Positions 35,748 to 54,496 of a DNA stretch of 64,000 bases are shown here, in pieces. Each line of letters opens with the position of its first letter. The first letter of the stretch is position 1. The stretch comes from Micromonospora echinofusca (GTDB lineage Bacteria > Actinomycetota > Actinomycetes > Mycobacteriales > Micromonosporaceae). The position numbers were made by a program, and so were the translations under genes. The notes beneath the pieces are model-generated. The model was not told the origin of the DNA. It saw nothing but the letters and a program-made list of their open reading frames with translations, and did not search any database. The stretch lies in NCBI RefSeq assembly GCF_900091445.1, contig NZ_LT607733.1, positions 1,939,501 to 2,003,500 of the forward strand. Direction: 5' to 3'.

Positions 35748-36488
35748 TCAGGTTGTGGGGGTCGCGTTCGCCGGTTGGTGGAGCGGCCCTCTCGCATTTA
35801 TGTGGAGTTCTTTGCCTGTGGTGGCTTCGATGATGGTGGCTGTGTCGGTGATGCGGTCGAACCATTGGGGCTCGTTGGTGCGGATGGCGCGTCCGGCGGA
35901 CCAGGCGATCGCGTCGGCGAGCCAGAGCCCGGGGTGGGTGTGATCTTTGATGTGGACCAGACGCACGCGGTGGCTGATGGCGTGTTGTTCGAGTAGCCGT
36001 CGGTAGGCGCGGACGTCGCTGCGGTCGGTGGCGGGGATGCGGCGGTTCGCGGTGCGTGCTTGTTGCCATTCGCGGTCGCTGGCGCGGCTTTCGAGATAGA
36101 CGTCGCGCACGCGTTGGGTGTTGAGGTAGCGCAGGAGTTGTTCGAGGCTGACCTGTCGGGCGTACTCGCGTTCGGCGAGTACGCGGTGGATTGAGCGCGT
36201 GCTGTCGTCGGAGGTTTCGGCTGGTCGGGTGTCGAGGGGGATTTGCAGCGAGACGGCGGACCAGCCGGCGTGGCTGGCGGCGACGTCGAGCATGTCTTCG
36301 ATGATGCCGACGTGTCCGCGGTGGTAGAGCTCGGTGGAGTGGTAGGGCTGGCCGCGTGCGGCGGCGCTGGCGGCGGCGAGGGCGGGGGCGACGTCGTCTT
36401 GGTCGATGATGACGGCGGACATGAGGTATGCGCCGGGCCGGCCCTGCGGTTGCCAGTACGACTCGTCGATGAAGGCACTGGGATACAT
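35748..36488 (-). CDS. DUF3800-like protein
   Basis: A 246-residue protein. The N-terminal AFIDESYW matches the DxSG-type start of DUF3800, and LWLADAIAWSAGRA gives the C-terminal acidic motif, consistent with an RNase H-like nuclease fold. The start shares one base with the relaxase stop (TGATG). DUF3800 proteins frequently accompany mobile elements; activity is not established. Confidence 0.65.
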   Translation of the reverse strand: MYPSAFIDESYWQPQGRPGAYLMSAVIIDQDDVAPALAAASAAARGQPYHSTELYHRGHVGIIEDMLDVAASHAGWSAVSLQIPLDTRPAETSDDSTRSIHRVLAEREYARQVSLEQLLRYLNTQRVRDVYLESRASDREWQQARTANRRIPATDRSDVRAYRRLLEQHAISHRVRLVHIKDHTHPGLWLADAIAWSAGRAIRTNEPQWFDRITDTATIIEATTGKELHINARGPLHQPANATPTT

Positions 36489-39400
36489 CAGTCGATCTCC
36501 GATCCATATTCAGCAGCGATGCGCTGCTGTGCGTCGTGCGCGTGTGCGCGCAGCTGCGCGGGGACAGGTGTGCTCTGGGGTGCCGGACGGGTGTCGTGCA
36601 CGGCGGTGACGCGGGCGGTGGTGGCGGCGACGGCGTCAGCGAGGGCGGTATTGCGGCTGGCGGCGCGGCGGGCTTGTTCTGCGGCGGCGGCGAGGCCGGC
36701 GTAGCGCGTGGGCAGGGCGCCGTCGTACCAGCGTTTCCACGTCGCGTGCTGGCCGTCGAGGGCCGTGGCCCGGCGGGTGCTGCCCGCGATCTGGTGGTCG
36801 AGACGGACGAGCTGCTGCTGGAGGTGGCCGATGTGTTGGGCGGCGGTGGTGGCGTGGGCGAGCACGTCGCTTTGAGCGGTGAGGCGCCGGGTGCGCGCGG
36901 GGCCGTGGTGCCACCAGCGCGGTTGCAGCCGCTGAGCTTGTACGCGCGCCTGTTGGTGTGCGGTGTGGGCGGTGGCGATCTGCTGGGTGAGGTCGTGGCG
37001 GTGGTGTTCGGCATCGGTGAGGGCGCGGTAAGCGGCGCGTAGGTCGTCGCCGGCGTAGGCAGGTGCGGCACGGTCGGCGGTCTGCTGCGCGGCGATGAGG
37101 CGGGCGAGTTCGGTATCGGGTGCGGTGGTGAGTTGTCCGGCGAGGGTGGCGGCGCCGAGAACGAGTCGGGCCCGGTGCCAGGCGTTCCAACGGCTGATCT
37201 CGCTGGTGTGTGGTTCAGGCCCAATGGGATGCTCGCCGGTGTACTGGTAGGTGTCGCGGTAGGCGCCGACGACCTCCGCGCGGGTGAGCCATTGCTGGCG
37301 ACCCGCGTCATCGGAGGGAACATCGCCGAGGGCGAGGGTCCAGGCGGGCCGGGTCTGCGCGGCGTGGTGGGCGAGTGCGTCGGTGCGGCGGTCGCAGATC
37401 GCGGCGACCTGGCGCAGGGCGTCGCCGATGTCGCCGGTCACGTTGGCAGGCAGGCGTTCGGTGTGGGTGCCCCACTGCTCGGGACGCTCGGCGACGGCCG
37501 GGTCTGCGGTGGCGCGTTGCATGAGGCGGTCGATGCGCCAGGACAGGACCGCGGCGAGGTCGTCGGCGCTGTCCAGCTCGCGAACGCGGATGACGCGGCT
37601 CAGGACGTCGCGGGGGTCGTGTCCGGCGGCGGCGTAGGTGGTGAGTCGGGTGATGAGTGCGGGGAGGGCGAGGTCGCGGGCGAGGCGGTCGGCGACGGCG
37701 GGGCCTCGTAGTTGGCGGACGATGGCGAGGTATTCGGGGATACGGGCGCGGGCGGCGAGGTCGTCGTAGATCGGCGTCCAGACGTGCAGGGCGTCGACGT
37801 CTGCAAGGAGCTGCTGTTCGGTCTCGGTGGCGGAGCGCTCGGGTGCGGTGCGGCGCATGATGTCGGCGAGCACGGCGACGGCGGCGGTGGGCGGCGCTGG
37901 TGGGGTGCCTTCGCGGGGTTCGTCGTCGGTGACGACGTAAGCCTCGTTGAGCGTTCGGGCGCGGGTCAGCATGACGTAGACGCGCTCCAAGGAGGTGCTG
38001 TCGTCGATGAGCGCGCGGGCGGTGTCGACGGTTTGCCCTTGGACGGAGTCGACGGTTTGGGCGTACGCGAGGTGGGTGTGCCGGGCGGTGTAGGCGGCGG
38101 GGAGAACCGTCGTGGTGCCGGTGACGACGTTGGTGACGTGCAGTTGGCTGTCGCGGCTGATGGCCTTGATGCGCCACTGGTCGCGGTTGGTGACGTAGTC
38201 GGGGCCGGCGGCGATGCGCCGGTCGTTGCGTCGGGTGACGATGACGTCTCCGACGCTCGCGATGTTGTCGTCGCGCAGGCGCACCGATGGGCCGCGCTGA
38301 ACGTGGCCGGCGGCGATGAGCATGGTGCGGGCGCGGTGGGCGATGTCTGCTGCCTCGTCGTTGGTGTCGACGAGGATCAGGCTGCGGCGCCCGGCGGTGG
38401 TGTCGGCGAGCCAGCGGGTGAGCATCTGGTCGACGAGGTCGGCTCGGTGCCCGCCGATGAGGCGGCGGTGTCGGTCGTAGTCGGCCAGGACGGTGATGTC
38501 GCCGTGGCGTAGCCGCAGCGAGGCAGGCCCTTCCCAAGGGTGGTGGAAGCGATGCACCTCCGCGAGGGTGCGAGTGACACCGAGCGCGGCGAGGTACCGC
38601 AACAGTCCACCGGGGCCGACGGCGGAGGTCTGGTGCGGGTCACCGACGAGGATCAGTTTCCCGCGCACCTGGTCGAGTTGAAGGGTGAGGCGGGCGAGGT
38701 CGTGGCTGGAGACCTGGGACGCCTCGTCGATGATGACCCACTGCCCTGGCGCGAACTGCCAGTCGCGTGCGCTGGTGCCGGCGGGTGGCCGCTGTTGGGC
38801 GTGCAGCCACCGGGCGATGTTCTCGGTACGCAGCGCCGTGCCGCCGGGTCGACGGGTGGCGTCGGCGAGCAGGTTCGCGGCGGCCTGGCCGACGGTGAGA
38901 CCGAGCACGGGCACACCCGCGTGGGCTGCTGCGGCGACGACGGCCCGTTGCAGGTGCGTCTTGCCGCTGCCGGCGGGACCGATGACACCGGTGACCCGGC
39001 GGTCGTCACCGATGAGGAACCGCAGGACATCGGTCTTCTCGCCCAGCAGACTCGTCTCGGCAATGGCCGCGTCGATGGCGTGGGCGGGTGCGGGTCGGGC
39101 ACCGCGCCGGCGGGCGTAGGCGATGACGTGCTGCTCGGCGGCCAGGACGCTGCGGGTGGTCAGGTGAAGGTCGCGATGGCGGGTGTATTCGCTGTGCTGG
39201 TCGCTGGCGCGTCGCAGGCTCGGCCCCCACTGCACGAGCGCGGGAGGTGTCAGGACGCGTAGGCCCGCGGTGTGCTGGGTGACGGCTGTGGCGGCGAGCT
39301 GCTGCACGCGTCGCCAGTCGTCGGTGGGGGAGTGGCCCGGGGCGATGCCGAGGGTCCGGCCGATGGCGAGTTCGAGGTGGTCGGGGCCGAAGACGGCGCG

Positions 39401-40735
39401 TTCGCGGCTGAGGGTGTGCACGGCGCGGGCGACCGCGAGGCGTTCGTCGGCGCGCACGGCGGCGTCGAGGACACGCGGCCAGTGAGCGCGCGGAACGCGG
39501 AGCTGGGTGGCGGCGGCCCGCAGTGTGGCTTCGTCCACGGTGGCGGCGCTTCCGGTGATACGCCGGGCATGGCGCAGCACCCTGGCCGCGGTGTCGGTGG
39601 TGCTGTCGTATGCGCGGCCGGCGAGCAGACGGCTGATCTGACCGCTGGTGTCGAGGCCGGCCTTGCGGTCTTCGGCAAGCCACCGCCGCACGGCCTCGTG
39701 CGTGGACTCGGCGCCCTTGTGCGGTCGGCGGGTCCGCAGGGTGGCGTGCTGCGCCCGAGCCCGCCATCGTCGGGTAGAGGTGCGCTGTAGCGGGTTCGAG
39801 GTGTGGTGAAGGTGCTCGGTGATGGCGGTACGGCGTTTGGCGTAGTGACGCAGGGACTCGTCGCTGATGCCGCCGATCTCGCGGATCCCGGAGTCGGAAC
39901 GGGGCGCGAACGTGATGCCACGGCGCTTGCCTAGCTCGGCTTCGATCGCGCGGTCATAGGCGATCCGGGCGCCGATCGCGGCCCGGTAGAGGGCCTTGCC
40001 GTCCAGAGCCAGCCACTGGGGGTCTGCGCCGTGAGTGCGGGCGAGGACCTTGGCGCTGATGACGATGTGCGCGTGCAGTTGGGGGTCGCGTTCGCGGCTG
40101 AGGCGGTGGTCGAAGACCATGGCCGCCAGGCCGCCGGTGTCGAGCTGCCGGACGCCGCCGGCGCCGGCGCGGGCGTAGGCGCCGTGGCGTTGCAGGTGAG
40201 CGAGCACGGCGCGGACACCGGCGTGGTGGGCGGCCATGACGTCGCGTTTGACGTCGTCATCGCCGAAGGCCCACAGCAGCGACACGCTGTTGACCGGGGA
40301 CGCGGTGACGTCGTACCCGGACACGGCCCGGCGTTCTGGTGCGGTCATCGCGTCGTACCACGCCTTGTCGCGCTGCTCGACAGTCGCATCGGGCGGAAGA
40401 AGGTCCAGTGCCCGCTGGGCGGCGGCAGCCCGGTACTCGTCGGTCTGCGGCGCGTAGGTGCGCCACCGCTGCCCAAGCTGATGGCCGACGCGCGGGTGCC
40501 GGCCTTCACCGATGAGCAGACGCATCTGCTTCTCGGTCACCCAACCGCTCACGCCCAGCACTGCGGCGCCGTCACCGGCCCACCACCCAGGACTCTCGCC
40601 TCGTGCGGTCGGGTCGGTGTAGTAGGCGGTGGGGTCATCGCCGGTCGGGGCGCGCAGGTCGTGCCGTCCGGCGGCGACCTGCTCCATCACGTACCGGTAT
40701 CCGCTGCCAGGCGAGATACGCGTGATGGTCAACAT
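36488..40735 (-). CDS. MobF-type conjugative relaxase with C-terminal helicase
   Basis: About 1415 residues from ATG 40735. The TrwC relaxase domain (about 1-300) starts with MLTITRISPGSG, has Tyr pairs near residues 38-39 and the metal site QLHAHIVIS (about 219-227). A RecD/TraI-like helicase follows: Walker A GPAGSGKTH (about 583), Walker B VIIDEASQ, motif III GDPHQTSAVG and an SF1 C-terminal motif (YAQTVDSVQGQTVD). A long Ala/Arg helical tail closes it. It would nick at oriT and unwind the transferred strand. An upstream TTG at 40759 is less likely as start. Confidence 0.9.
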   Translation of the reverse strand: MLTITRISPGSGYRYVMEQVAAGRHDLRAPTGDDPTAYYTDPTARGESPGWWAGDGAAVLGVSGWVTEKQMRLLIGEGRHPRVGHQLGQRWRTYAPQTDEYRAAAAQRALDLLPPDATVEQRDKAWYDAMTAPERRAVSGYDVTASPVNSVSLLWAFGDDDVKRDVMAAHHAGVRAVLAHLQRHGAYARAGAGGVRQLDTGGLAAMVFDHRLSRERDPQLHAHIVISAKVLARTHGADPQWLALDGKALYRAAIGARIAYDRAIEAELGKRRGITFAPRSDSGIREIGGISDESLRHYAKRRTAITEHLHHTSNPLQRTSTRRWRARAQHATLRTRRPHKGAESTHEAVRRWLAEDRKAGLDTSGQISRLLAGRAYDSTTDTAARVLRHARRITGSAATVDEATLRAAATQLRVPRAHWPRVLDAAVRADERLAVARAVHTLSRERAVFGPDHLELAIGRTLGIAPGHSPTDDWRRVQQLAATAVTQHTAGLRVLTPPALVQWGPSLRRASDQHSEYTRHRDLHLTTRSVLAAEQHVIAYARRRGARPAPAHAIDAAIAETSLLGEKTDVLRFLIGDDRRVTGVIGPAGSGKTHLQRAVVAAAAHAGVPVLGLTVGQAAANLLADATRRPGGTALRTENIARWLHAQQRPPAGTSARDWQFAPGQWVIIDEASQVSSHDLARLTLQLDQVRGKLILVGDPHQTSAVGPGGLLRYLAALGVTRTLAEVHRFHHPWEGPASLRLRHGDITVLADYDRHRRLIGGHRADLVDQMLTRWLADTTAGRRSLILVDTNDEAADIAHRARTMLIAAGHVQRGPSVRLRDDNIASVGDVIVTRRNDRRIAAGPDYVTNRDQWRIKAISRDSQLHVTNVVTGTTTVLPAAYTARHTHLAYAQTVDSVQGQTVDTARALIDDSTSLERVYVMLTRARTLNEAYVVTDDEPREGTPPAPPTAAVAVLADIMRRTAPERSATETEQQLLADVDALHVWTPIYDDLAARARIPEYLAIVRQLRGPAVADRLARDLALPALITRLTTYAAAGHDPRDVLSRVIRVRELDSADDLAAVLSWRIDRLMQRATADPAVAERPEQWGTHTERLPANVTGDIGDALRQVAAICDRRTDALAHHAAQTRPAWTLALGDVPSDDAGRQQWLTRAEVVGAYRDTYQYTGEHPIGPEPHTSEISRWNAWHRARLVLGAATLAGQLTTAPDTELARLIAAQQTADRAAPAYAGDDLRAAYRALTDAEHHRHDLTQQIATAHTAHQQARVQAQRLQPRWWHHGPARTRRLTAQSDVLAHATTAAQHIGHLQQQLVRLDHQIAGSTRRATALDGQHATWKRWYDGALPTRYAGLAAAAEQARRAASRNTALADAVAATTARVTAVHDTRPAPQSTPVPAQLRAHAHDAQQRIAAEYGSEID

Positions 40736-40970
40736 GTCGAAACCGTAGAAGATCAACACGTTAGGCGGCTATGGAGAATGCAAGAGGGTGTGTCGCCTCT
40801 AAGGGTATTAGGTGATCATGGCGGGCGTGTTTGGGCAGGCAGGCATGCATGTAGCTGATCGGGGAGTGGTCGGGGAATGATTTCTGGAATTGCGGCTACT
40901 GTCGAACGAATTGGCAGATTGCAGGGTTGGGAATGTGTTGGCGGTAGTGGAATGCCGGTACGGTCGTTGT
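40736..40970. other. Candidate oriT / divergent promoter region
   Basis: A 235-bp gap between the relaxase and the divergent small gene. It looks more AT-rich than its surroundings and carries short repeats (GGCGG...CGCC around 40763-40798, GGGAATG twice) and ATGCATG. MobF elements often place oriT next to the relaxase start. No nic site can be named. Confidence 0.35.
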
Positions 40971-42224: not shown

Positions 42225-42668
42225 TCAGTCGGTTTGACCGAGGAGGCGGCGGTGGTCGCCGGTGGTGACCCATCCGGCGGTATCGCCGAAGAGTCGTTCG
42301 GCGCGGTGGGCGAGCGTGACGGAGTGCAGCTCGGGTCGCTGCGCGTGGTGCTTGCTGCTCTGCCAGAGGTCGAGCAGGAGGGCGGCCAGGCGCAGAGTGT
42401 GGCGCATGCGCCCGGGGTTGCAGGCGTCGCAGCGGTGTCGGCGGGCGTACTTGATCAGGGCGACGGTGGCGGCGCGTAGCTCGATGGCGGCGGCGGTGTC
42501 GTTGATGCGCGTGGTGGGCCACGTCGGGGCGTGCTCGCAGAGGTGCAGGACGGTGAGCGCCTGTGCCATGCGGCGGCGGGCAGTGTCGAGCAGGTGAAGG
42601 ACTTGCCGTGTGCGCTGGTCGGCGGGCAGCGTCGGTAGGAGCATGGTGGGGTCGGCTGGTGCTGTCAT
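42225..42668 (-). CDS. Hypothetical helical protein, 147 aa
   Basis: Helical, with a Cys/His cluster RRHRCDACNPGRMRH near the middle. ATG 42668 is preceded by AGGAGT. Its upstream region carries a copy of the shared GTTC-N12-GAAC leader (42711-42730), with a weak -10. No family recognised. Confidence 0.6.
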   Translation of the reverse strand: MTAPADPTMLLPTLPADQRTRQVLHLLDTARRRMAQALTVLHLCEHAPTWPTTRINDTAAAIELRAATVALIKYARRHRCDACNPGRMRHTLRLAALLLDLWQSSKHHAQRPELHSVTLAHRAERLFGDTAGWVTTGDHRRLLGQTD

Positions 42669-42710
42669 GGGGGACTCCTGCTGTGGGGTTTGGTGGGGTA
42701 TTCGAGCGGG

Positions 42711-42745
42711 GTTCGCTATCCCTCTCGAACGCCTGTTGCTTGACC
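42711..42745 (-). promoter_or_regulatory. Shared promoter/operator box E
   Basis: On the minus strand: weak -10-like TCAAGC, 7 nt, then GTTC (42730-42727), 12-nt spacer GAGAGGGATAGC, GAAC (42714-42711). Same geometry as boxes A-D, but the -10 is poor. Confidence 0.45.
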
Positions 42746-42816
42746 CGCTGCGGGGCTTTCTTCGTCCGGGTGGCCCGAGGCTTTGTCTGCGCTCCGGCCA
42801 CCCGAGCGGATGCTGA

Positions 42817-43458
42817 TTACCGGTAGCGGCGGCGCTGCATCGGGCGCGTCGTGGTGACGGTCGCGCCGATGTTGGGGTGCCACTCCTTGACGCCTCCGCC
42901 GCGTCGCTTGGCCGCGTACATTGCTGCGTCTGCCCTGCTGATTAGGTCGACGGCGGTAACGTCGTTGTGGTCCGCGAGGGCGAGCCCGAGGCTGGCGTAG
43001 CAACCGAAGTTCGTTGCCCCGAGGGTGACCGTGGTTGCGTCGAGCGCCTGAGCGGCGGCCTCGGCGTTGATTCGGGCGGTCTGCATGCCGTCGTCCGTGA
43101 TGATCATGAACTCATCGCCTCCCATTCGACCGACCTTCGCGCGCGAAAGATTGAGCGCCGTCAGGGTGTTTGCTACCTGGCAGAGCACGAGGTCCCCGGC
43201 GGTGTGGCCGTGTTCGTCGTTGATCTCTTTGAAGCGGTTGAGGTCGAGAAGGGCGACGGATACCGGACGGGCGGGGTCGGCGAGCAGGGCGTTTAGATGC
43301 CTGAGCAGGGCGCGGCGGTTCGGCAGTCCGGTCAGCGCGTCGTGGTCGGCTTCGTGGCGGGCGGTGGCCAGGTCGGTGCGAAGCTTCGCGTTGCGCGCGA
43401 GTAGCACGATGCACGACGCGGTGGTGGTTGCGAGCAGGACCGTGGATGCGGTGAGCAT
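42817..43458 (-). CDS. Membrane-anchored GGDEF diguanylate cyclase
   Basis: A 213-residue protein: one TM helix (residues 4-20), a short linker, then a GGDEF domain with DALTGLPNRRAL, LLDLNRFKEIND and an intact GGDEF at 113-117. It should make cyclic di-GMP at the membrane. The inhibitory RxxD site normally 5 residues before GGDEF is absent (LSRA there), so product inhibition may be lost. It has no visible sensor domain. Expression is from box A, whose -10 lies about 75 bp upstream of the ATG. Confidence 0.88.
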   Translation of the reverse strand: MLTASTVLLATTTASCIVLLARNAKLRTDLATARHEADHDALTGLPNRRALLRHLNALLADPARPVSVALLDLNRFKEINDEHGHTAGDLVLCQVANTLTALNLSRAKVGRMGGDEFMIITDDGMQTARINAEAAAQALDATTVTLGATNFGCYASLGLALADHNDVTAVDLISRADAAMYAAKRRGGGVKEWHPNIGATVTTTRPMQRRRYR

Positions 43459-43476
43459 GTGTGCTCTCCCTGAGTA

Positions 43477-43901
43477 GGGGGTTTGTGTGTGGTGTGCGGT
43501 GGGGGTTCGCCATCCCCTCCGAACAGTTCTTACTATACCCGGTCCTGTGTCCGCTGGCTACCTATGTCCGTCCTGTTCGGACGTGAGAATTTATGATCTT
43601 GGTGGGTTGCGGCCGGCGGCTACGCCGACCAGCTCGCGGCGTGCGGGCGTGGCGCGTCCCCCACTTCTTTCGGCGGTGGGGGCGAGTTCACTCGTCCCGC
43701 GGCGCGCGCAGTGGAGGTCAAGTTCGGGTGCGGGGTTTCGAGGAAAAGATCATGCGGGGTGTGCATGATGTTTTGCGAGCCGCGCCCGGACTTGACCGGA
43801 GCGAGCACGTCGCTAGCCTGTTGGGCCCCCACCGAAGGAGAAGGGGTTTTGGCAGTGCGGCCGGAGGCCGCTTCCGGTTTCCGGTCCGTCAGGACCGGGC
43901 C
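43477..43901. repeat. 425-bp direct repeat, copy A
   Basis: Identical over its whole length, as far as I can read, to 46960-47384 (offset 3483). It contains promoter/operator box A, the stem CCCCCAC...GTGGGGG, and ends with the stem-loop CCGGTCC-GTCA-GGACCGG (43881-43898). Flanks differ at once on both sides. Confidence 0.93.
43505..43540 (-). promoter_or_regulatory. Shared promoter/operator box A (GGDEF gene)
   Basis: Minus strand: -10 TATAGT (43537-43532), 7 nt, GTTC (43524-43521), 12-nt spacer GGAGGGGATGGC, GAAC (43508-43505). The palindrome would sit at or just after the transcription start, a typical repressor site or a leader hairpin. Confidence 0.65.
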
Positions 43902-43958
43902 TGCGACCCGCCGCCGTCCGGCGGCGGCCATGGTGGGCCGCCGCCGAGCGCCGGATGG

Positions 43959-44474
43959 TTACCGGTCGGTGGTGGGTGGCTTGATCTGTTGTACGCGGTG
44001 CAGTTGCTCGATGAGGATTTGAGCGGCGGGCGTGTGCGTCCGGGGATCCCAGATTCGCCGGTAACCGCTCGTCCAGAGCAGCCGCCATATCTGGGCGGCG
44101 TGGCCTGGGCGGGCACCTGCCGGGTCGCCGGTGGTTGCGGGTGCGTCTGGTGGCTGGGTGCGGTAGCGGGTCATGGTGCCGGCGAGCATGGGGCATGCGG
44201 TCACGCTGTACCGGGCGCACTCGGGGTGCATGGCGGGTTCGGGGGAGATGAGTCGAGACAGGTCGACGTCTCGCATGGCGAAGACGAACGGCGGGGACAT
44301 CGCGTTGCCGCAGATTTGGCAGATGCGGTCGGTCAGGGCCGCTAGGAGCCGTTCGGCGTCGATGGCTCCGAACCGGTGCCGGCCGTCGGGCATTTGCATG
44401 GTAATCCACGGTACGACCAGGCCGCCGATGGTGGGGCGGTGCCGCAGCGTGACGGGAATGGGGATCTCGAGCAT
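43959..44474 (-). CDS. Cys-rich zinc-ribbon-like hypothetical protein
   Basis: About 171 residues from ATG 44474, 86 bp after the previous gene. It begins with VTLRHRPTIGGLVVPWIT, then ICQICGNAMSPPFVF and HPECARYSVTACPMLAG, so a CxxC and a HxxC...C cluster likely bind zinc. I have the impression of a recurrent actinobacterial accessory family but cannot name it. The longer in-frame ORF upstream is shadow. Confidence 0.6.
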   Translation of the reverse strand: MLEIPIPVTLRHRPTIGGLVVPWITMQMPDGRHRFGAIDAERLLAALTDRICQICGNAMSPPFVFAMRDVDLSRLISPEPAMHPECARYSVTACPMLAGTMTRYRTQPPDAPATTGDPAGARPGHAAQIWRLLWTSGYRRIWDPRTHTPAAQILIEQLHRVQQIKPPTTDR

Positions 44475-44560
44475 GAGGGGTCTTTCTGGCTGGGGTGGTG
44501 CCGGCCGGGGCAGCCCGGCCGGCATCGACGGTCGGGAGAGCTGGGGTGGGTGTCGTCGGC

Positions 44561-45271
44561 CTAGCCAGTGATGTCCGCGCCGAAGCGGCGCAGCATGTCG
44601 GCGAGCGGGATCGCTTCGCGGGTGGTGCTGCCGTCGTGGGCGATGCTGAACGCGTGGAAGGCTTCGCCGGTCTGGTGCGGCGTGTACTCGATGTGCTCGA
44701 CGTGCTGCCCGTGGAAGGCGGCGCGTAGCAGGGCGTGGATGGTGGCGGCGTGGTCCGTGACCGGCGTCGCTCCCGGGGTGGTCCTGCGGTTCAGGGCGCG
44801 GATGATGCGCCGCGTTCGTGACGGGGCGCGGGAGGCCGTGTCGGTGACGACGACCGTGACGGAGAAGATGCCGGTGCGGTACACGCGTAGCGCGCAGGTG
44901 GCCAGGGTTCCGCCGCCGGTCAAGTAAGTCAGGGTGCCCGTGACTTCGAGGGGCGCCGGTCCGGGGGTCACCGGCACCGTGTGCGCGAAACCGGGCTGGG
45001 CGCGGGTGCCCTCCCAGGCTCGATCCGCCTCCAGGTCGGTGCCCAGGGTGTCGGGAATGACGGCATACGGACGCACGGCCTCGATGACGGTGTCCGGGTC
45101 GGTGACGCACTCCGCCGCGCCGAGCCAGACGGGCATGGCATCAGGGCTGGTCTCGTCCAGTACGTCGGTGTTGATCACCTGGGCGAAAAAGCTGTGCAAC
45201 GGGCGGTCCCACCCCACGCGCACGATGTAGCCGCTCCGGTCGGGGAGGGCGTCGAGCTGACGACTGCTCAC
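44561..45271 (-). CDS. Hypothetical protein, first gene of box C operon
   Basis: A 236-residue protein from GTG 45271 behind AAGGAG. The N-terminal half (YIVRVGWDRPLHSFFAQVIN, VWLGAAECVTDPDTVIEAV) and the C-terminal half (EYTPHQTGEAFHAFSIAHD) look like beta-rich domains. No family recognised. Promoter box C lies about 40-70 bp upstream. Confidence 0.65.
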   Translation of the reverse strand: MSSRQLDALPDRSGYIVRVGWDRPLHSFFAQVINTDVLDETSPDAMPVWLGAAECVTDPDTVIEAVRPYAVIPDTLGTDLEADRAWEGTRAQPGFAHTVPVTPGPAPLEVTGTLTYLTGGGTLATCALRVYRTGIFSVTVVVTDTASRAPSRTRRIIRALNRRTTPGATPVTDHAATIHALLRAAFHGQHVEHIEYTPHQTGEAFHAFSIAHDGSTTREAIPLADMLRRFGADITG

Positions 45272-45309
45272 AAGAAATCTCCTTGGGGTTCGGTGACTGT
45301 CCTGGTGGG

Positions 45310-45345
45310 GTTCGCCGTCCCGTCAGAACTATCCTTACTGTACCC
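45310..45345 (-). promoter_or_regulatory. Shared promoter/operator box C
   Basis: Minus strand: -10 TACAGT (45342-45337), 7 nt, GTTC (45329-45326), 12-nt spacer TGACGGGACGGC, GAAC (45313-45310). Sequence differs from box A outside the key bases, so similarity is not just recent duplication. Confidence 0.65.
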
Positions 45346-45430
45346 GTTTTCGCGCCGGCCGTCCACTTGGGAAACTCGGAAGGGTGGTGCCGCCCGGGGG
45401 AGTCGCGCGTGGCGACTCCCCCGGGTGCTG

Positions 45431-46948
45431 TCACAGCTTGTTCTGGGTTTTTGGGTCGCCGAGTACGTGTACCTGCTGGCTCAGGATGAGCGGCGCGTCG
45501 GCCGGTCCCTTGACGTGGGGGCGGACGTAGGTGCGGCGTCGTAGCGCGCGGCCGGGTCCCCAGGGCTGCTCCCGAAAGAACCCGGACACCCACCATCGGC
45601 GGGTGTAGACGCGCGTTGGCGTGTCGCCGCTGGCGTCGCGTCGTGGCTGCTGCTTGCGGCGTAGCCGTACGAGTCGCACGAGGGGGGCGGGCCGGTTGGC
45701 GCGCTGGTACGCCTTGCGGGTCGCCTTGTCGGCCGGCTCGTCGGTGATCTCCGCGTCCGGTTGCGTGGTGAGGATCCATGTGGCGATCAGTGAGCACAGC
45801 ATGAGGCGGGTCTGTTCGCTGGTGGGCGTGTAGGGCTGGCCGAACCGCAGTCGCGCGCCGGTGCTTACCGGGGCCAGCCATCCGATGCGCTCGCGGAGTC
45901 CTTGCATTTCGGGTTCGGTGAGTTGCCGGCCCTGCACGAGGACTTCGGCGGGGGTGTAGAAGGTGATCCACACTCCGCCGGGGACCGGTCCCCACTGCGC
46001 CGCGATGATCGGCACGGTGATGCCGGTTTGCAGACCGGTCGGTTGGTAGACCGGTGTGTGCCAGATGAGCAGTCCGTCGGGGGCGGGCATCTCCACCGAC
46101 TCGATGCGTACGTCCGGAAGGTCGCGTGCGGCGTGCGCGGCGAGGGTGGTGAAGTCGGGGTCAATCCAGAAGATCCGCGCGTTCTCGACGTGATTGGCCA
46201 TGAGCGCGGTGTACTGCCGTAGCGGCTCGGGGTTGCGGGCGTCCACGAGTGCGGCCGGCGCGTCGAGGGGGGCGCCGGGGAACATGTGTCCCGGGACCTT
46301 GTACGTCTCACCGTTGGCGAGCAGGTCCAGTAGGTACGTCCGGCCGGAGGTCCGCCAGAATCGCACCAGCCGATCGCGCACCTTCGGCAGCATCTGCGGG
46401 CGCAGCGACCGAAATTCAGGCGCGGCGGGGGCGTCGCTGAGGGTGTCGCTGGCGAGGCGGGCTGTGTCGCTGCTCGACAGAGGTCGCCGTACGGGGGTGT
46501 CGGGGGTGGCGGCAAAAAGGGCTTGGTGCAGGGGCCGTAGCACCCGTGCGCCTGCCAGGTGGCCATGGTGGCGGCGAGCCCGCTTGTGCGCGCGTCGGGT
46601 GAGCCCTTCGGGGTCGCGCTGCTCGACCAGGCGGGCGCAGCCTTCGCATGCGGCCCAACTGTTGCCGAGGTTGTGCATCCGCATGCCAGCCACGTCGGTC
46701 GACATCGCTACGTCGAGGTTGCCGAAGGTGAAGGTTGCCACGGGATGCGGCGCGGAGCAGAAGTCGCACATCAATTGCATGTTGGCGAGTTGTGCGAGGG
46801 GGACCGGGTCAGGGTCGTGGTCCTGGGGGCTGTGACCGGGGTGGAGGAACGTCCTCTCACCCTGGGCGGTGATGACCGTAAGGGGTGCGCCACACGTCGC
46901 GCAGCCGTATCCCTCGATGACTGGCAGGGTGTCGTCATGGATGCCCAT
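45431..46948 (-). CDS. Large hypothetical protein with three CxxC knuckles
   Basis: A 505-residue protein from ATG 46948 behind AAAGGAGACGC. The N-terminus has CxxC pairs at 16/19 (GCATCG), 61/64 (MCDFCSAP) and 101/104 (CEGC), suggesting two zinc sites. The rest is an alpha/beta body with Arg-rich C-terminus (RLRRKQQPRRDASGD). Its promoter is box B within repeat copy B. No enzyme motif is recognised. Confidence 0.65.
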   Translation of the reverse strand: MGIHDDTLPVIEGYGCATCGAPLTVITAQGERTFLHPGHSPQDHDPDPVPLAQLANMQLMCDFCSAPHPVATFTFGNLDVAMSTDVAGMRMHNLGNSWAACEGCARLVEQRDPEGLTRRAHKRARRHHGHLAGARVLRPLHQALFAATPDTPVRRPLSSSDTARLASDTLSDAPAAPEFRSLRPQMLPKVRDRLVRFWRTSGRTYLLDLLANGETYKVPGHMFPGAPLDAPAALVDARNPEPLRQYTALMANHVENARIFWIDPDFTTLAAHAARDLPDVRIESVEMPAPDGLLIWHTPVYQPTGLQTGITVPIIAAQWGPVPGGVWITFYTPAEVLVQGRQLTEPEMQGLRERIGWLAPVSTGARLRFGQPYTPTSEQTRLMLCSLIATWILTTQPDAEITDEPADKATRKAYQRANRPAPLVRLVRLRRKQQPRRDASGDTPTRVYTRRWWVSGFFREQPWGPGRALRRRTYVRPHVKGPADAPLILSQQVHVLGDPKTQNKL

Positions 46949-46959
46949 GCGTCTCCTTT

Positions 46960-47384
46960 GGGGGTTTGTGTGTGGTGTGCGGTGGGGGTTCGCCATCCCC
47001 TCCGAACAGTTCTTACTATACCCGGTCCTGTGTCCGCTGGCTACCTATGTCCGTCCTGTTCGGACGTGAGAATTTATGATCTTGGTGGGTTGCGGCCGGC
47101 GGCTACGCCGACCAGCTCGCGGCGTGCGGGCGTGGCGCGTCCCCCACTTCTTTCGGCGGTGGGGGCGAGTTCACTCGTCCCGCGGCGCGCGCAGTGGAGG
47201 TCAAGTTCGGGTGCGGGGTTTCGAGGAAAAGATCATGCGGGGTGTGCATGATGTTTTGCGAGCCGCGCCCGGACTTGACCGGAGCGAGCACGTCGCTAGC
47301 CTGTTGGGCCCCCACCGAAGGAGAAGGGGTTTTGGCAGTGCGGCCGGAGGCCGCTTCCGGTTTCCGGTCCGTCAGGACCGGGCC
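46960..47384. repeat. 425-bp direct repeat, copy B
   Basis: Perfect copy of 43477-43901. The two copies bracket the genes at 43959-46948. Recombination between them would remove 3483 bp and join the upstream region of the 45431 gene to that of the GGDEF gene. Confidence 0.93.
46988..47023 (-). promoter_or_regulatory. Shared promoter/operator box B
   Basis: Identical to box A because it lies inside the repeat: -10 TATAGT (47020-47015), GTTC (47007-47004), GAAC (46991-46988). It drives the 45431-46948 gene. Confidence 0.65.
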
Positions 47385-47438
47385 AGCGACCTGACAGCAC
47401 CCGACGAGCGGTGCCGGGTTCGAGTCTGAGGCGGGAGG

Positions 47439-48191
47439 CTATCGGCGCTGCCCTGTTTGATCGAGGATCGTCCAGAGCGTCGCGCGCTTCCACTTGCGGC
47501 GGTGGCGGCCTTTCGGACCGGCGGTGTCTTCGTCTGCTTGGCGAAGCACGTCGTCGGGTAGAGCGGTCGGGTGGTTGTATCCCAGCACGCGTGCGGCTTC
47601 AGCGGCGCCGACGAGTTCGTCGGGATCGCCGGAGCGGTCTGGGTGGCCCTGGGGAGTCGCCCGGGGGCGTCCGGTGTGTGGCGCGCCTTGGCCGGTGCGG
47701 CTGTCGGCGATCTCCCACACGGTGCGGCGCTTCCAGCGGCGGCGCTTGCGGCCGGTGGGAGTGAGGGATTCGTCGTCGACGCGCTCAAGCAGGAGTGGCC
47801 AGATCCGATTGCGCCCTTGCAGGGAGTCGACGCTTTGATAGCCGAGCATGCGCGCGACGGTGGTGGTGTTGACGAGTTCGTCGGGATCGCCGCTGCGGTC
47901 CACGGCGACGCTGGCGGCGCGTCGGGCCTTGTCCCGGGGTAGTTGGAAGGCGGCAATGTCGTCGGCGAGCCACCTGGTGCCGTCGACGCGCTCGGGGAAG
48001 CCGTTGGTGGCCCGTTCGCCGTAGAGGCGGTCCAAGTGGCTGACGGAGATGCCGAGCATCGCCGCAGCCTGGGTACGACCTACGTGGCTGCTGCCGTGGG
48101 CATCGCGGGTGGGCATGCGCCGATGATGCCGTATTGGTTGGTGGGGCGGCCGTGGGGGATGGGCGAGCCGTTCGAAACGGGCGTTGATCAT
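47439..48191 (-). CDS. HTH regulator-like protein with duplicated module
   Basis: 250 residues (225 from ATG 48116). The first HTH (VGRTQAAAMLGISVSHLDRL, about 37-56) resembles MerR/AlpA-type winged helices, with RWLADDIAAFQ following. Then two copies of an 87-residue module occur: RSGDPDELV...AR.LGY (99-118 and 186-205) and GR.RR.WKR.T.W.I.D (147-163 and 228-244). Likely a DNA-binding protein with three recognition modules; it is a candidate regulator of the shared boxes. It starts two bases after the previous stop. Confidence 0.65.
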   Translation of the reverse strand: MINARFERLAHPPRPPHQPIRHHRRMPTRDAHGSSHVGRTQAAAMLGISVSHLDRLYGERATNGFPERVDGTRWLADDIAAFQLPRDKARRAASVAVDRSGDPDELVNTTTVARMLGYQSVDSLQGRNRIWPLLLERVDDESLTPTGRKRRRWKRRTVWEIADSRTGQGAPHTGRPRATPQGHPDRSGDPDELVGAAEAARVLGYNHPTALPDDVLRQADEDTAGPKGRHRRKWKRATLWTILDQTGQRR

Positions 48192-48193
48192 GT

Positions 48194-48841
48194 TTATTGC
48201 TTCGCTGGTCGCTGATTGGTGTGTCGTAGGATGGCAGGCACGTGCTCGGCGTATGGGCCTTTGGGGGCCTGTGTGGCGTCGGCACCAGGCGGCCGGGGGG
48301 AGTTCGCCAAACTAACCCCCCGGCCGTTGCCCTGTCCGCCATTGGCACGGCGGTGCGAGCGTTGACGGCGCAGGATCCGGCGATGTCCGCCGGTGGCGTA
48401 CTGGTCCGACGGGCTGCTGGTGGTGACGCGAAGGTAGTGGCGGGCGGCTCGGGCGAGTAGGCCGTACTGCGTGTCCCATCGCGCGATTACCCGCCCGCTC
48501 GGCAGGTGCCGCGCCACGTACTCGCGTCGCAGTGCGTCCCACCCGCCGACGCACACGGAGGTCGACTCGGCGACCAGCTCCCAGCGATCGCCTTCGGCTG
48601 AGGCGACGTGGGCGTAGCGCTCGCGGGCCAGCGACCAGCGGTCATTCTCGGCTTTGAGGATCAGGCCGTTCTCGGCGCCGTCGCGGAACAGGTGCTGCTG
48701 GCCGGCGCAGTCGCGGATCATCACCACGTCTGCCTGCGCGTCGAGTGGCTGGGGTCGCGTTGCGTGGCACTGCCAGTGACCACAGAGCGGTAGATGACGC
48801 GCCGTCGCGCGTTCGGAATCGGTGAGGGGGGTGGGCGGCAT
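48194..48841 (-). CDS. Hypothetical protein, 215 aa, box D operon
   Basis: ATG 48841 follows AAGGAG by six bases. The N-terminal two-thirds (LPLCGHWQCHATRPQPL, GENGLILKA-like RDGAENGLILKAENDRW, YGLLARAARHYLRVTTS) looks folded. The tail is Arg/Gly/Pro-rich. Box D is upstream at 48881-48914. No family recognised. Confidence 0.6.
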   Translation of the reverse strand: MPPTPLTDSERATARHLPLCGHWQCHATRPQPLDAQADVVMIRDCAGQQHLFRDGAENGLILKAENDRWSLARERYAHVASAEGDRWELVAESTSVCVGGWDALRREYVARHLPSGRVIARWDTQYGLLARAARHYLRVTTSSPSDQYATGGHRRILRRQRSHRRANGGQGNGRGVSLANSPRPPGADATQAPKGPYAEHVPAILRHTNQRPAKQ

Positions 48842-48880
48842 GGCTAACTCCTTGGGGCTGGCGTGTGGGCTCTGATGAAG

Positions 48881-48914
48881 GTTCGCCCTCTCCATCAGAA
48901 GAGCTACTACTATG
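48881..48914 (-). promoter_or_regulatory. Shared promoter/operator box D
   Basis: Minus strand: -10 CATAGT (48914-48909), 7 nt, CTTC (48901-48898), 13-nt spacer TGATGGAGAGGGC, GAAC (48884-48881). One arm base differs, but position and spacing to the -10 are kept. Confidence 0.55.
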
Positions 48915-49377
48915 CCCGTTTTGAAGGTTCTTGTCTAGGTCAGAGCGTCGTTCGTTGGGCGGCGGGCGTGCTCGGTGGTGGTGGGCGATCACAGCAGGGC
49001 GGACGGCGGAGCTGGCAGGCCGACGCGGCTGGTTGCGAGCGTAGCGAGCGGCCGGGTCGGCCGTTGTCTGCGGGAGCAACGGTCTGGACCAGTGCGGGCC
49101 GAGGCAATATCTGGGTTGAGGACAGTCGGAGGGATCGCGGGCCGCCTGGGCGGCAGATCGCCAGGACGAGCTGCATCGATGGTCACGGTGGGTCGGAGGG
49201 GCCTGGTTGCGACGGCGCAATAAGTTGCAGGGGATCGATGGCTTTTGGGTACGGCAGGCTGGTAGCCCGAGATGGGCCGTGGAACCTCGATGCAGCCGCC
49301 AGGCGTAGGTGTGCTTCGTCGTGGTGAGGGGGCGCGGTCGGTGAGGCCGTAGCAGAGGCGGCAATCGGTGTCAACGT
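48915..49377. other. No supported gene
   Basis: About 460 bp with plus-strand open frames that lack start signals and protein-like composition. No clear repeat or transposon end. Confidence 0.5.
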
Positions 49378-50252: not shown

Positions 50253-50759
50253 TCAGGGGCGGCGGCGGGTCAGCGCCCATGCGGTTTCGGTCACGGCGGC
50301 TAGGGCGAGGCCGTAGGCGAGGTGGGCGACGAATCCGCGTAGGTGGGTGGCGATGGGGGTAGACCCGGTTGGGGCGGAGAATCGTAGCGCTGGGGTGATG
50401 CCTTCGTCGACGATGAGGGACATGGCCGCGCCGGAGGCCAGGCCGGCCAGCACCGGGTTGAGGCGGGTGGTGCGGCGTAGCAGGGTGTAGACCGGTGCCC
50501 AGCTGATCGCCAGCCCGTAGTGGAAGGCCATCCCCGCCCGCTGCCGCGCCGTGCCGTGAAGGTCGACGCCGAGCAGGCGGAGGGTCATGGCGACGGCGAT
50601 CTCGTAGGGCAGGCCGGGGCGGGCGGCGTCTTCCCGCTTGCGGTCGGCGTCGGATTCGAGCTGGTAGAGCGTCATGCTGATCGGGTCCATCACTTTGGTC
50701 GCCGCGTAGCCGGCGGCCGGGGCGACGGCCAGGTCCTTGATCGTCTCGGTGAGCCTCAT
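50253..50759 (-). CDS. Membrane protein of mercury locus, hypothetical
   Basis: A 168-residue protein with several hydrophobic stretches (LAVAPAAGYAATKVM, FHYGLAISWAPVYTLL, VLAGLASGAAMSLIVDEG, VAHLAYGLALAAVTET). It starts 57 bp downstream of merB. It resembles DUF1440/YagU-like small membrane proteins. A role in mercurial uptake or membrane protection would be inference. Confidence 0.6.
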   Translation of the reverse strand: MRLTETIKDLAVAPAAGYAATKVMDPISMTLYQLESDADRKREDAARPGLPYEIAVAMTLRLLGVDLHGTARQRAGMAFHYGLAISWAPVYTLLRRTTRLNPVLAGLASGAAMSLIVDEGITPALRFSAPTGSTPIATHLRGFVAHLAYGLALAAVTETAWALTRRRP

Positions 50760-50816
50760 GGTGCGGTCTCCTTCGGTAGTGGGCGCGGTGCCGCTGGTAT
50801 GCGGCCTCGCCGTTGA

Positions 50817-51479
50817 CTATCCGGGGAGGTCGTGATCGTGCAGGAGTGCGCCGAATTCGGCGGTGCCGCAGGCGATCGCCTGCGTACGGTCGAGCAGGGT
50901 GCCGGTCAGGTGGGGGTGGTGGGCGGCCCAGGCGTGGGCGGTGGTGTCGGTGGTGAAGAAGTTGATGTAGCCGCAGGTGCGTTCGGCCGAGGGGGCGCAG
51001 CAGTCGCCGGCCGCGGCGGCGTACACGACGGTGGTGGCTGGCTGCCAGGTGGCCTGCTCGCCGTCGACGTGGACGACGATGTGGTGGCCGGTGGCGGGTT
51101 CGCTGCTGGTGATGGTGATCGGCTGGCCGAGCATGGCGGAGGTGCCGAGGGCGTCGATGGCGCACATGGCGAACACGCCGGTTCCGTCGGCGAGGGTCAG
51201 TCTGTGCGGGGTAGCGTTGGTGGAGAAGGGGTAGGCGGCGGTGAGGTCGCCGCGCGGGTCGCGCACGATCAGGTCGACGTCGGTGAGTTCGTCCAGTACT
51301 GCGTCGGGGTTCACCCCGGCGGCGTGGGCGATGCGGGCGAGGTCGGCGTGGGCGGGTGGCTGGCCGGTGTGCGCGTAGGTGGTCAGGATCGTGCGGTGGA
51401 CCAGTCGGGCGGGTTGGCTGAGCTGGGCCGCGCGGTCGCCCTTGTTGAGGTTGAGGTTCTGGCTGTCCTGTGCGGTCAT
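50817..51479 (-). CDS. merB: Organomercurial lyase MerB
   Basis: A 220-residue protein from ATG 51479 behind GGGAG. The catalytic triad is visible: Cys106 and Asp109 in FAMCAIDALG, and Cys169 in RTCGYINFF (equivalents of C96, D99, C159). An N-terminal winged-helix-like part precedes them. It breaks the carbon-mercury bond and hands Hg2+ to MerA. It lies 20 bp after merA in one operon. Confidence 0.92.
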   Translation of the reverse strand: MTAQDSQNLNLNKGDRAAQLSQPARLVHRTILTTYAHTGQPPAHADLARIAHAAGVNPDAVLDELTDVDLIVRDPRGDLTAAYPFSTNATPHRLTLADGTGVFAMCAIDALGTSAMLGQPITITSSEPATGHHIVVHVDGEQATWQPATTVVYAAAAGDCCAPSAERTCGYINFFTTDTTAHAWAAHHPHLTGTLLDRTQAIACGTAEFGALLHDHDLPG

Positions 51480-51499
51480 TGTGGTCTCCCAGTGGGGGG

Positions 51500-52921
51500 T
51501 CAGGAGGCGCAGCAGGACAGCTTCGCCACGTCGCGGGTGAAGGTCTGGGCGGCGAGTTTCAGGCCTTCGGCCATGGTGAGGTAGGGGCACCAGGTGTCGG
51601 CCATCTGCGCCACGGTCATGCCCGCTTGCACCGCGTAGACCGCGGCGGCGATCACGTCGCCGGCGTTGTCGGCCAGCACGTGCACCCCCCGGATGCGGCC
51701 GCTGCCACGCTCGGCGACGATCTTGACAAGGCCGCGGGTGTCGCGGTTGACGATCGCCCGTGGCACGAAGTCCAGGGGCAGCACGCGGCATTCGCAGTCC
51801 AGGCCCTGCTCGGCGGCTTGGGCGTCGGTGAGCCCGACGGCGGCGATCGCCGGGGTGGTGAAGATGACCCGCGGCAGGTGGGTGTAGTCCATGCTGCGGC
51901 CGGCGTTGTCGAAGGCGTTGTCGACGATCAGGGTGCCGTGCGCGCCCGCCACGTACACGAACTGCGGATGGCCCGTGACGTCGCCGGCGGCCCAGATCCG
52001 CCGGTTGCTGCTGCGCAGCCGCTCGTCGACGATGATCTCGCCCCGCCGGCCGACCGTGACCCCCACCTGGTCCAGGTTCAGGTCTTGAGTAAGCGGGCGG
52101 CGGCCGGTGGCGACCAGCAGCCGCTCCGCGGCCAACTCGATCGTGCCGTGACCGGTGGTGAGGGTGAGCGAGTAGCCGGCGTCGCCGCGGGCGACGGCGG
52201 TGACGGTGGCGCCGGTGTGCACGGTGATGCCCTCGTCGGCGAACACGCCCTCGATGGCCGTCGAGATCTCCGGCTCCTCGAACGGTGCCAGCCGGTCCAC
52301 GGTCTCCACCACGGTCACCCGGGTGCCGAGGCGAGCGAACAGCTGCGCCTGTTCCAGGCCGATCGCGTTGCCGCCGATGACGATCATCGACTCTGGAAGC
52401 CGGTCGAGGTCCATCGCCGTGGTGGAGGTCAGGTAGCCGGCGTCGGCGAGCCCGGCGATCGGCGGCACCCACGGCGTGGACCCGGTGGCCACCACGTACT
52501 GCGCGGCCTCGATCGTGCGGGTGCCCCCGTCGGCCTGTTCCACCGCCAGGCGCGGTTGGTCAGGGTCGCCGGTGAACCGGGCCGTGCCGGGCAGGATCTG
52601 CCAGCCGTACTCGGCGGCCAGATCCACGTACTTGTCCGCGCGCATCGTCTCGACCATGCCGCGTTTGCCGTCGATCAGCGCCGCGAAGTCCACTACCGGT
52701 TCTGCCGGCCGCAGACCGGGGAACCGGCCCGCGGCAAGCGCGGTGTGTCGGGCGTCGGCCGCGGCCAGGAGCGCCTTCGACGGCACACAGCCGGTGTTCA
52801 CGCACGCGCCGCCGACCGTGCCCTTCTCGACTATCACCACCGACAGGTCACGTCGTCGGGCGGCGATGGCCGCCGCGAAGGCCCCACCACCGGAACCCAC
52901 GATCGCCAGGTCGTACGCCAT
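51500..52921 (-). CDS. merA: Mercuric reductase MerA
   Basis: A 473-residue flavoprotein. FAD fold (VGSGGGAFAAAIAARRR), redox pair Cys40/Cys45 in GGACVNTGCVPSK, NADPH fold (VIGGNAIGLEQAQLFARLG) and the C-terminal vicinal Cys pair in KLSCCAS all mark MerA. It lacks the N-terminal MerP-like domain. It reduces Hg2+ to Hg0 with NADPH. The ATG at 52921 faces merR across a short divergent region. Confidence 0.95.
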   Translation of the reverse strand: MAYDLAIVGSGGGAFAAAIAARRRDLSVVIVEKGTVGGACVNTGCVPSKALLAAADARHTALAAGRFPGLRPAEPVVDFAALIDGKRGMVETMRADKYVDLAAEYGWQILPGTARFTGDPDQPRLAVEQADGGTRTIEAAQYVVATGSTPWVPPIAGLADAGYLTSTTAMDLDRLPESMIVIGGNAIGLEQAQLFARLGTRVTVVETVDRLAPFEEPEISTAIEGVFADEGITVHTGATVTAVARGDAGYSLTLTTGHGTIELAAERLLVATGRRPLTQDLNLDQVGVTVGRRGEIIVDERLRSSNRRIWAAGDVTGHPQFVYVAGAHGTLIVDNAFDNAGRSMDYTHLPRVIFTTPAIAAVGLTDAQAAEQGLDCECRVLPLDFVPRAIVNRDTRGLVKIVAERGSGRIRGVHVLADNAGDVIAAAVYAVQAGMTVAQMADTWCPYLTMAEGLKLAAQTFTRDVAKLSCCAS

Positions 52922-53017
52922 GGCCCTGTCCTCCGCCCCGCTCAGCCGAGCCCTGTTACCCAGATGGGAAGATGCTACGCTCCCATCCTGGTATCCGGAT
53001 GAATAGGGGATTGGTTG
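52922..53017. promoter_or_regulatory. merR-merA divergent promoter with operator
   Basis: An imperfect palindrome CCAGATGGGA (52960-52969) / TCCCATCCTGG (52981-52991), 11-bp spacer, is placed between the two starts. A smaller ATCCTGGTATCCGGAT symmetry overlaps it. It is the likely binding site of the ArsR-type regulator. An AGGGGA ribosome site precedes the merR GTG. Confidence 0.6.
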
Positions 53018-53706: not shown

Positions 53707-53734
53707 CGTGCCGGATCAGCGCCATCCGATTGTT

Positions 53735-54426: not shown

Positions 54427-54496
54427 TGAGAGGGTGGTTCGGAAGGGCATGTCCGGTTGTGGGTTTGGCCGCGGGGTAGAGGTCCTGCCCGTGGGG

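Follow-up and report, generated by a model that had tools for sequence, protein, structure and literature searches.

A leader hairpin with a conserved loop ahead of five transcription units of a Micromonospora echinofusca mobile element

Five transcription units on the minus strand of a 64,000-nucleotide (nt) stretch of Micromonospora echinofusca DNA (contig NZ_LT607733.1, positions 1,939,501 to 2,003,500; hereafter the window, in whose coordinates positions are given) begin with similar short sequences, which raises the question of what these units share and how it is read. A preliminary description saw in them a palindrome, GTTC-N12-GAAC, placed 7 nt downstream of a −10 hexamer, and proposed a dedicated regulon inside a mobile element, run by one repressor or by a leader hairpin. 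We found that the shared unit is a 33-nt minus-strand hairpin, rather than the palindrome: its stem covaries, its loop is conserved, it lies within a narrow distance of the start codon, it is confined in its genome to five sites at the thresholds used, and it recurs ahead of several genes in many actinobacterial mobile elements. Both the regulon within a mobile element and the leader hairpin were supported. To our knowledge, the switching-on of establishment genes in actinobacterial conjugative elements has been little studied.

The shared hairpin

Each hairpin has a stem of 10-12 base pairs (bp) topped by a conserved 9-nt loop, mostly AnGGCGAAC. The GAAC of the palindrome is the 3′ half of this nearly invariant loop, and GTTC lies in the foot of a longer stem, the opposite strand of which is found downstream of GAAC. 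The loop was ANGGCGAAC, with ANAGCGAAC at 42711 and at the equivalent site of related locus L047. As the preliminary description had it, GTTC-N12-GAAC was exact at 42711, 43505, 45310 and 46988 and imperfect at 48881 (CTTC, spacer 13); the window holds five exact copies, the fifth elsewhere at 62898, versus 0.81 expected, and none of 100 shuffles reached five. The 7-nt spacing held behind TATAGT (43505, 46988), TACAGT (45310) and CATAGT (48881), and at 42711 the −10 position is degenerate (TCAAGC, 42738-42743); GGGAnGGC in the spacer was conserved at three sites but altered at 42711 (GGGATAGC) and 48881 (GGAGAGGGC). Directly upstream of four of the five hairpins there was a clear −35/−10 promoter with 17 nt between the hexamers. 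Coordinates are collected in Table 1, in which R1 denotes a covariance model of the hairpin and R2 a model of promoter plus hairpin, from which the E and 1 copies of the window and of L047 were left out.

When eight distinct hairpins were aligned without gaps, the 12-bp stem around the 9-nt loop was 80.2% paired. Seven of the 12 stem pairs had changed on both sides, as many as in 1 of 500 shuffles, and the covariation score of 0.363 was reached by none of the shuffles; slid registers gave 0.07-0.12. In a set of 21 hairpins the score was again reached by none of 500 shuffles, and both sides had changed in four of ten pairs, a number equalled in 7 of 500 shuffles. Exchanging 3′ arms among 23 distinct Micromonospora hairpins weakened the outer stem, at −5.72 kcal/mol before the exchange, to −3.01 kcal/mol (standard deviation 0.40), and none of 300 swaps was as good; elsewhere, swaps as good as the original numbered 12 of 300 in Catenuloplanes and 10 of 300 in Streptomyces. 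The arm-swap set comprised 66 of 77 listed hairpins, seven without a recognised core and four without inner pairs having been dropped and identical repeats excluded. Folding of the 45 nt beginning at the box gave a stem-loop with the loop in the same position in ten leaders from the window and locus L014; two E-type leaders deviated in register. By inspection, the loop sequence, ANGGCGAAC or in other copies ANGGCAA, is compatible with a bulge of two nucleotides, a single G-C pair and a GNRA-like GCGAA or GCAA loop.

As a symmetric repressor operator, GTTC-N12-GAAC was rejected: its centre is conserved, its 5′ arm varies alone, and none of the four pairs between GTTC and GAAC, which had been taken for paired arms, covaries, versus 7 of 12 for the longer stem. 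The single repressor proposed for this palindrome fares no better, in that the GTTC arm is gone in shorter copies, the loop is the most conserved part, and some hairpins, e.g., the 42711 copy, lack a recognised promoter of this kind. Other readings of the hairpin were also set aside. The sequence after the stems was A/C-rich or G/C-rich in the leaders inspected, with no T-run, and 4227 Rfam covariance models gave no match to the window at gathering score. Between 42640 and 49000 only five Rfam matches appeared at E ≤ 5, all far below their gathering scores; two of these overlap hairpins A and E (21.7 of 58 bits; and 16.6 of 65 bits, on the opposite strand). An intrinsic terminator and a known RNA family were rejected for want of a U-tract and of an Rfam match. 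A leader peptide starting from an ATG in the loop was rejected because that ATG is limited to window copies A and B, the flavour of locus L096 and single copies in L092 and L094; most others have ACG, AAG or AGG.

Table 1. Positions of the hairpins and associated features in the window (aa, amino acids; ORF, open reading frame; pLDDT, predicted local distance difference test)
Feature	Coordinates	Strand	Details
Leader hairpin 1	42699..42731	−	loop ATAGCGAAC; before 147-aa ORF 42225-42668; R1 39.7 bits; fold −13.7 kcal/mol
Leader hairpin A	43493..43525	−	loop ATGGCGAAC at 43505-43513; before GGDEF ORF 42817-43458; R1 48.6, R2 80.3 bits
Leader hairpin C	45298..45330	−	loop ACGGCGAAC; before 236-aa ORF 44561-45271; R1 43.1, R2 67.9 bits
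Leader hairpin B	46976..47008	−	loop ATGGCGAAC; before 505-aa ORF 45431-46948; R1 48.6, R2 80.3 bits
Leader hairpin E	48869..48901	−	loop AGGGCGAAC; unrelated stem TTCTGATGGAG/CTTCATCAGAG; before ORF 48194-48841; R1 37.8 bits
Promoter A	43532..43560	−	−35 TAGCCA 43555-43560, 17 nt, −10 TATAGT 43532-43537; conserved in alignment A5
Promoter C	45337..45365	−	TGGACG, 17 nt, TACAGT; read from sequence
Promoter B	47015..47043	−	TAGCCA, 17 nt, TATAGT; read from sequence
Promoter E	48909..48937	−	TAGACA, 17 nt, CATAGT; read from sequence
GGDEF domain protein	42817..43458	−	213 aa; Pfam GGDEF E 3e-35
Protein with three winged-helix-like repeats	47439..48191	−	second gene of unit E, no own hairpin; AlphaFold2 mean pLDDT 71.6
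TrwC-type relaxase with helicase domain	36488..40738	−	Pfam TrwC E 6e-63; no hairpin ahead
Long inverted repeat, unit A	43716..43797	−	25 pairs; core ATCATGC-N7-GCATGAT at 43749-43769; centre 266 nt from hairpin 3′ end
Same inverted repeat, unit B	47199..47280	−	core 47232-47252, placed by position in duplication

Genes and elements that carry the hairpin

We scanned 11 other loci for orthologues of the marked genes and measured the distance of the loop to the extrapolated start codon. The loop lay 49-56 nt before the start in 8 of 10 matches to the GGDEF gene (one more at 17 nt, one without a hairpin), 49-53 nt before it in all five matches to p45431 and 45-47 nt in both matches to p44561. 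For these three genes the expectation of a signal upstream of orthologues therefore held (45-56 nt in 15 of 17 matches); for two others it held only in part, the loop lying 51 nt before the start in 3 of 8 matches to p42225, and among nine matches to p48194 at 48 nt in two, at 3-20 nt in three and at −7 in one, with three lacking it. Ahead of p43959 the hairpin stood 195 nt away in four matches. No hairpin was found in the scanned loci ahead of orthologues of the relaxase, p41417 or the winged-helix gene (0 of 8 each). Across 380 leaders from 30 loci, with genes called by a simple ORF finder, GGCAA was the commonest 5-mer in hairpin loops including the closing pair (43 leaders), and 48 loops with GGCAA or GGCGAA lay 41-84 nt before the start codon; the overlapping loci L096 and L162 inflate these counts slightly. 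Other marked genes encode a DUF932-like protein (below the cut-off), DUF2786, DUF6409 and an ArdC-like protein; the product at L117 13442 resembles that of window 4741-5970 (ArdcN). At L047 9719-11687 the p48194 orthologue matches as two fragments separated by about 1.3 kb and is apparently interrupted, with the hairpin kept 48 nt before the start.

In the M. echinofusca genome (7,002,527 bases) R1 at E ≤ 0.05 and R2 at E ≤ 0.01 each gave five matches, all of them the window sites. Among 354 genomes of the family, R2 matched in 10 at E ≤ 1e-7, own genome included, and in 29 at E ≤ 0.01; several isolated weak matches among the 29 look like chance. Clusters of 2-6 R2 matches lay in G034 (Micromonospora alfalfae MED01), G318, G327, G335 (Micromonospora sp. 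HK10), G338, G348 and G294 (M. antibiotica), of the same genus, and in G192 (Amorphoplanes nipponensis) and G247 (Catenuloplanes japonicus). Weaker matches occurred in G179 (Nucisporomicrobium flavum; three), G040 and G257, and R1 found three copies of a further flavour in G319. Syntenic elements in other Micromonospora species carry the hairpin ahead of the same genes. In the genus of G673, 11 of 199 genomes matched R2 at E ≤ 0.01, with clusters in G801 (Streptomyces sp. CB03234), G817, G819, G877 and G673 itself. An even class-wide sample of 394 genomes gave nine with a match at E ≤ 0.01, own genome included, of which one other was judged convincing; an even order-wide sample of 397 gave three at E ≤ 0.001, all in the same family and again including the own genome. 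This suggests that the hairpin is rare outside the family and the known genera, as far as a model built from one family can detect.

Searching with R1 alone proved too weak for whole genomes, since 89 of 354 matched at E ≤ 0.05; of 30 listed R1 loci, nine were one conserved coding stretch (htrA-like by reading) and others resemble terminators or coding sequence. A motif-and-stem scanner found 35 sites in 14 loci versus 5.3 for a shuffled set, and roughly eight of the 35 sites are clearly unrelated. One match in L121 was judged chance, and the three hits of a pattern scan of viral contigs were put down to coding sequence and chance. Plasmid DNA similarity returned 19 records with short pieces, mostly under genes named GGDEF/EAL and OmpA. 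Two 1.3-Mb genomes of the class (L082, L083) gave weak R2 matches of doubtful relation; in L082 the sequence TGTCGGTTGGGAAGGTAATTCCCAACCGACA precedes an ORF resembling an ABC-transporter ATPase.

Every element has a leader version of its own, which it repeats. The Micromonospora flavour mostly combines −10 TATAGT with loop ANGGCGAAC, the Amorphoplanes flavour TATCTT with AAGGCAAG, the Catenuloplanes flavour TATATT with AGGCAAG, and the Streptomyces flavours TTTAAT with AGGGCAA or CAGAAT with ATGGCAG. The loop variants AnGGCAA, AAGGCAAG and AnGGCAG each stand ahead of several genes in the Amorphoplanes, Catenuloplanes and Streptomyces elements. For most flavours a drawing with a bulge, a single G-C pair and a loop of the GCAA or GCGAA type is possible, the Nucisporomicrobium copies (TATATT, GTTGGGCAAAGGCCAAC) fitting most poorly. 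Some Streptomyces leaders (L117 8933, L118 8434, L119 8909, L120 9532 and L142 4701) have a second loop copy in a smaller downstream stem, GCGG[AGGGCAA]CCCGC.

How the hairpin may be read

A ParB/KorB-like gene usually accompanies the hairpins. In all 13 such genes checked in related elements, the start codon is preceded at 52-73 nt by a hairpin whose loop is of the NGGCAA type, on stems quite different in sequence (14-15 pairs in L045, L049 and L050). Upstream of the ten from Micromonosporaceae there was no TANNNT in 130 nt and no R2 promoter-hairpin match. In the encoded protein ParB_N scored above the Pfam cut-off in L117 and below it in L014, and HTH_ParB was weak; its predicted structure (pLDDT 69.5) had KorB of RK2 as the best match in the PDB (Foldseek E 1.8e-9). 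A search of public genomes with this protein gave 24 loci. R2 matches, 98 in all at E ≤ 0.05, were present in 23 of them and absent from one, a Holophagales metagenome-assembled genome. Nine of the 23 were already known from their hairpins, so that all 14 new loci, every one from Streptomyces, were positive, a result that covers close relatives only because the query came from hairpin-bearing elements. R2 gave no match on three plasmid relatives of the gene (Cellulosimicrobium, Arthrobacter pZXY21 and Pseudonocardia). The plasmid relatives L147, L148 and L149 have other, plasmid-specific leaders repeated before several genes, as if each element family had a leader tag of its own.

We consider it slightly more likely than not that the five boxes are copies of a 5′-leader RNA element of a conjugative-element regulon, read at the loop and setting establishment-type genes jointly. 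Judging from the −10 distance, a housekeeping-type promoter would start transcripts at the stem-loop's foot or directly beside it, and the mRNA would begin with the hairpin, followed by a short spacer and a ribosome-binding site. A factor presumably encoded by the element would bind the loop and jointly control translation or mRNA lifetime for all marked genes, and the marked set would comprise establishment-type functions expressed as a block upon entry of the element into the cell. Because the start-codon distance is narrow with or without a recognised promoter, a role of the RNA near translation initiation or in mRNA decay appears likelier than that of an operator. Only tentatively would we extend this to a class of RNA regulons, in which a GNRA-like leader hairpin, its stem varied and its loop constant, marks the establishment genes of each actinobacterial conjugative element; the reader would be a factor that the element encodes, perhaps the KorB-like ParB protein. 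Since the leader of that protein's own gene carries the hairpin, a ParB-family clamp would in that case regulate itself at the RNA level, and the upstream inverted repeat (Table 1) could add further control in some units. An RNA tag that lists the regulon of each element would provide a way to find marked genes, many of them without a known family and candidates for anti-defence factors, and to search for the hairpin's reader; if true, such control would parallel, at the level of RNA, the repressor and single-stranded DNA (ssDNA) promoter schemes known elsewhere. Limited literature searching found no paper naming the hairpin, which is not proof of absence.

Several results weigh against a loop-read leader RNA. 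Strand asymmetry expected of RNA is weak, with 39 G.T versus 25 A.C opposed pairs, and among 98 hairpins the sense fold was the more stable in 62 and the antisense fold in 36. The arm swap was not significant in L050 (217 of 300 swaps as good), L096 (106 of 300) or the mixed pair (148 of 300), and there are further inverted repeats within the Streptomyces spacer. In 5 of 8 loci no hairpin was recognised ahead of the p42225 orthologue, and the weakest ParB leaders, in L092 and L093, have only a 4-bp inner stem. The TANNNT test applied to the ParB-like genes is coarse, coming up empty also for Streptomyces L117 and L122 despite a TTTAAT promoter. The establishment role is a putative one, judged from the company the genes keep. 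Finally, the M. echinofusca genome has no close orthologue of the ParB-like gene (best E 1.4e-36, 90 kb away), perhaps because of the ORFs at 50253-55755. These lie on the side where relatives have the ParB-like gene and include, as read from translations, a mercuric-reductase-like ORF, an ArsR-like regulator and transposase-like ORFs.

A DNA operator just downstream of the −10 hexamer, bound by an element repressor (the winged-helix protein of 47439-48191 or the KorB-like ParB protein) that represses all units, would suit a box placed at the expected transcription start. KorB, a regulator of a plasmid regulon, represses many promoters of one plasmid and is the best structural match of the ParB-like protein, which differs in an extra C-terminal region with conserved His/Cys residues. 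An operator does not explain why the asymmetric loop is the most conserved part while its flanking arms covary, nor hairpins ahead of ParB-like genes without a recognised promoter of this kind, and we rate it as unlikely. With the 47439-48191 protein as repressor it is disfavoured. This winged-helix protein had no PDB match at E ≤ 0.001 and HTH_8 fell below the Pfam cut-off; homologues are present in the Micromonospora and Catenuloplanes loci, but blastp on gene calls from a simple ORF finder detected none in the ~7-20 kb covered of each Amorphoplanes, Nucisporomicrobium and Streptomyces hairpin locus, making it a poor candidate for a shared reader. Processive antitermination, in which a boxB- or put-like hairpin loads a factor onto RNA polymerase at the unit start, or acts alone, is unlikely in our estimation. 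The boxB element of lambdoid nut sites is a small stem-loop near the transcript start with a GNRA-like pentaloop; the present hairpin is similarly small and has GCGAA or GCAA inside its loops by inspection, near a transcript start predicted from the −10 hexamer, no terminator is attached, and several units of one element are marked. It differs from boxB in its 2-nt bulge and in being kept near the start codon, even where no adjacent promoter was recognised, with one copy for each of what look like short units. Pfam scans of 29 proteins, covering part of each element and with no dedicated search, revealed no antitermination factor.

A passive stabiliser, a stem at the expected 5′ end that blocks mRNA decay without a trans factor, has a precedent in ardC of p576, where two short upstream inverted repeats have been proposed to lengthen mRNA life (PMC8708921). 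Such a stem would not need a constant loop while the stems are exchanged, and where no promoter was recognised next to a copy, that copy may lie within a transcript; this explanation, too, seems to us an unlikely one. By far the least probable is a structure in transferred ssDNA rather than RNA, i.e., a protein site or an Frpo-type promoter. In other plasmids ssDNA promoters serve leading-region genes, and the Frpo/ssi systems, as described in PMC11541004, resemble the present one in having a repeated regulatory sequence with stem-loops before such genes; they differ in that here an ordinary double-stranded promoter sequence precedes the hairpin. The weak strand asymmetry and the second long inverted repeat upstream of units A and B would fit an ssDNA structure, but in folds of 20 promoter regions (with RNA parameters) the −35/−10 hexamers were not consistently paired, and hence the promoters do not look Frpo-like.

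Returning to a leader RNA read at its loop, ANTAR target RNAs have tandem hexaloops linked to terminators, and their conserved loop carries A at the first and G at the fourth position. The present loops share the conserved A and G, but are mostly single, 7-9 nt long and without a terminator. Closest in logic are EGeRS1 and EGeRS2 of pLS20-family plasmids, where one type of leader stands before several establishment operons (PMC8708921). According to that description, EGeRS2 combines a strong promoter with operators of a ribbon-helix-helix repressor, EGeRS1 spans ~420-750 bp with conserved inverted repeats and no promoter activity, ardC is among the genes controlled, and copies of one plasmid are mostly most alike. 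Repeated leaders of the EGeRS type were found here as five copies in the window and 2 to 6 R2 matches per clear relative cluster, with an adjacent relaxase; unlike EGeRS so described, what these Actinobacteria share is a promoter followed by a hairpin of 33 nt whose loop is conserved.

The upstream inverted repeat and the duplication

The alignment of the long inverted repeat comprised 12 copies: the window supplied one, and nine other loci, in several genera, the remaining 11. The centre of the repeat lay 253-268 nt from the 3′ end of the hairpin. Its 25 pairs were 97% formed versus 33-46% when slid, with none of 500 shuffles as high; seven pairs had changed on both sides (22 of 500 shuffles had as many), amounting to 24 such cells (0 of 500). 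It stands before one or two units per element (L014, L045, L046, L048, L049, L050, L093, L094 and L097), L014 and L046 having two cores each; ahead of units 1, C and E the exact core is absent. At its edge, Micromonospora copies have a divergent promoter-like TTGACC-N16-TAGCCT, with looser counterparts in L050, L093 and L097. A pattern search of 140 family genomes found the inverted repeat also in G161, G162 and G245, once each, and a scan of viral contigs for the upstream palindrome returned 41 stretches. In the window, promoter, hairpin and inverted repeat are all carried by a 432-bp duplication (43477-43908 and 46960-47391) whose copies are 99.8% identical, as if kept alike by gene conversion; boxes A and B both lie inside it and are indeed copies, as had been recognised from the start.

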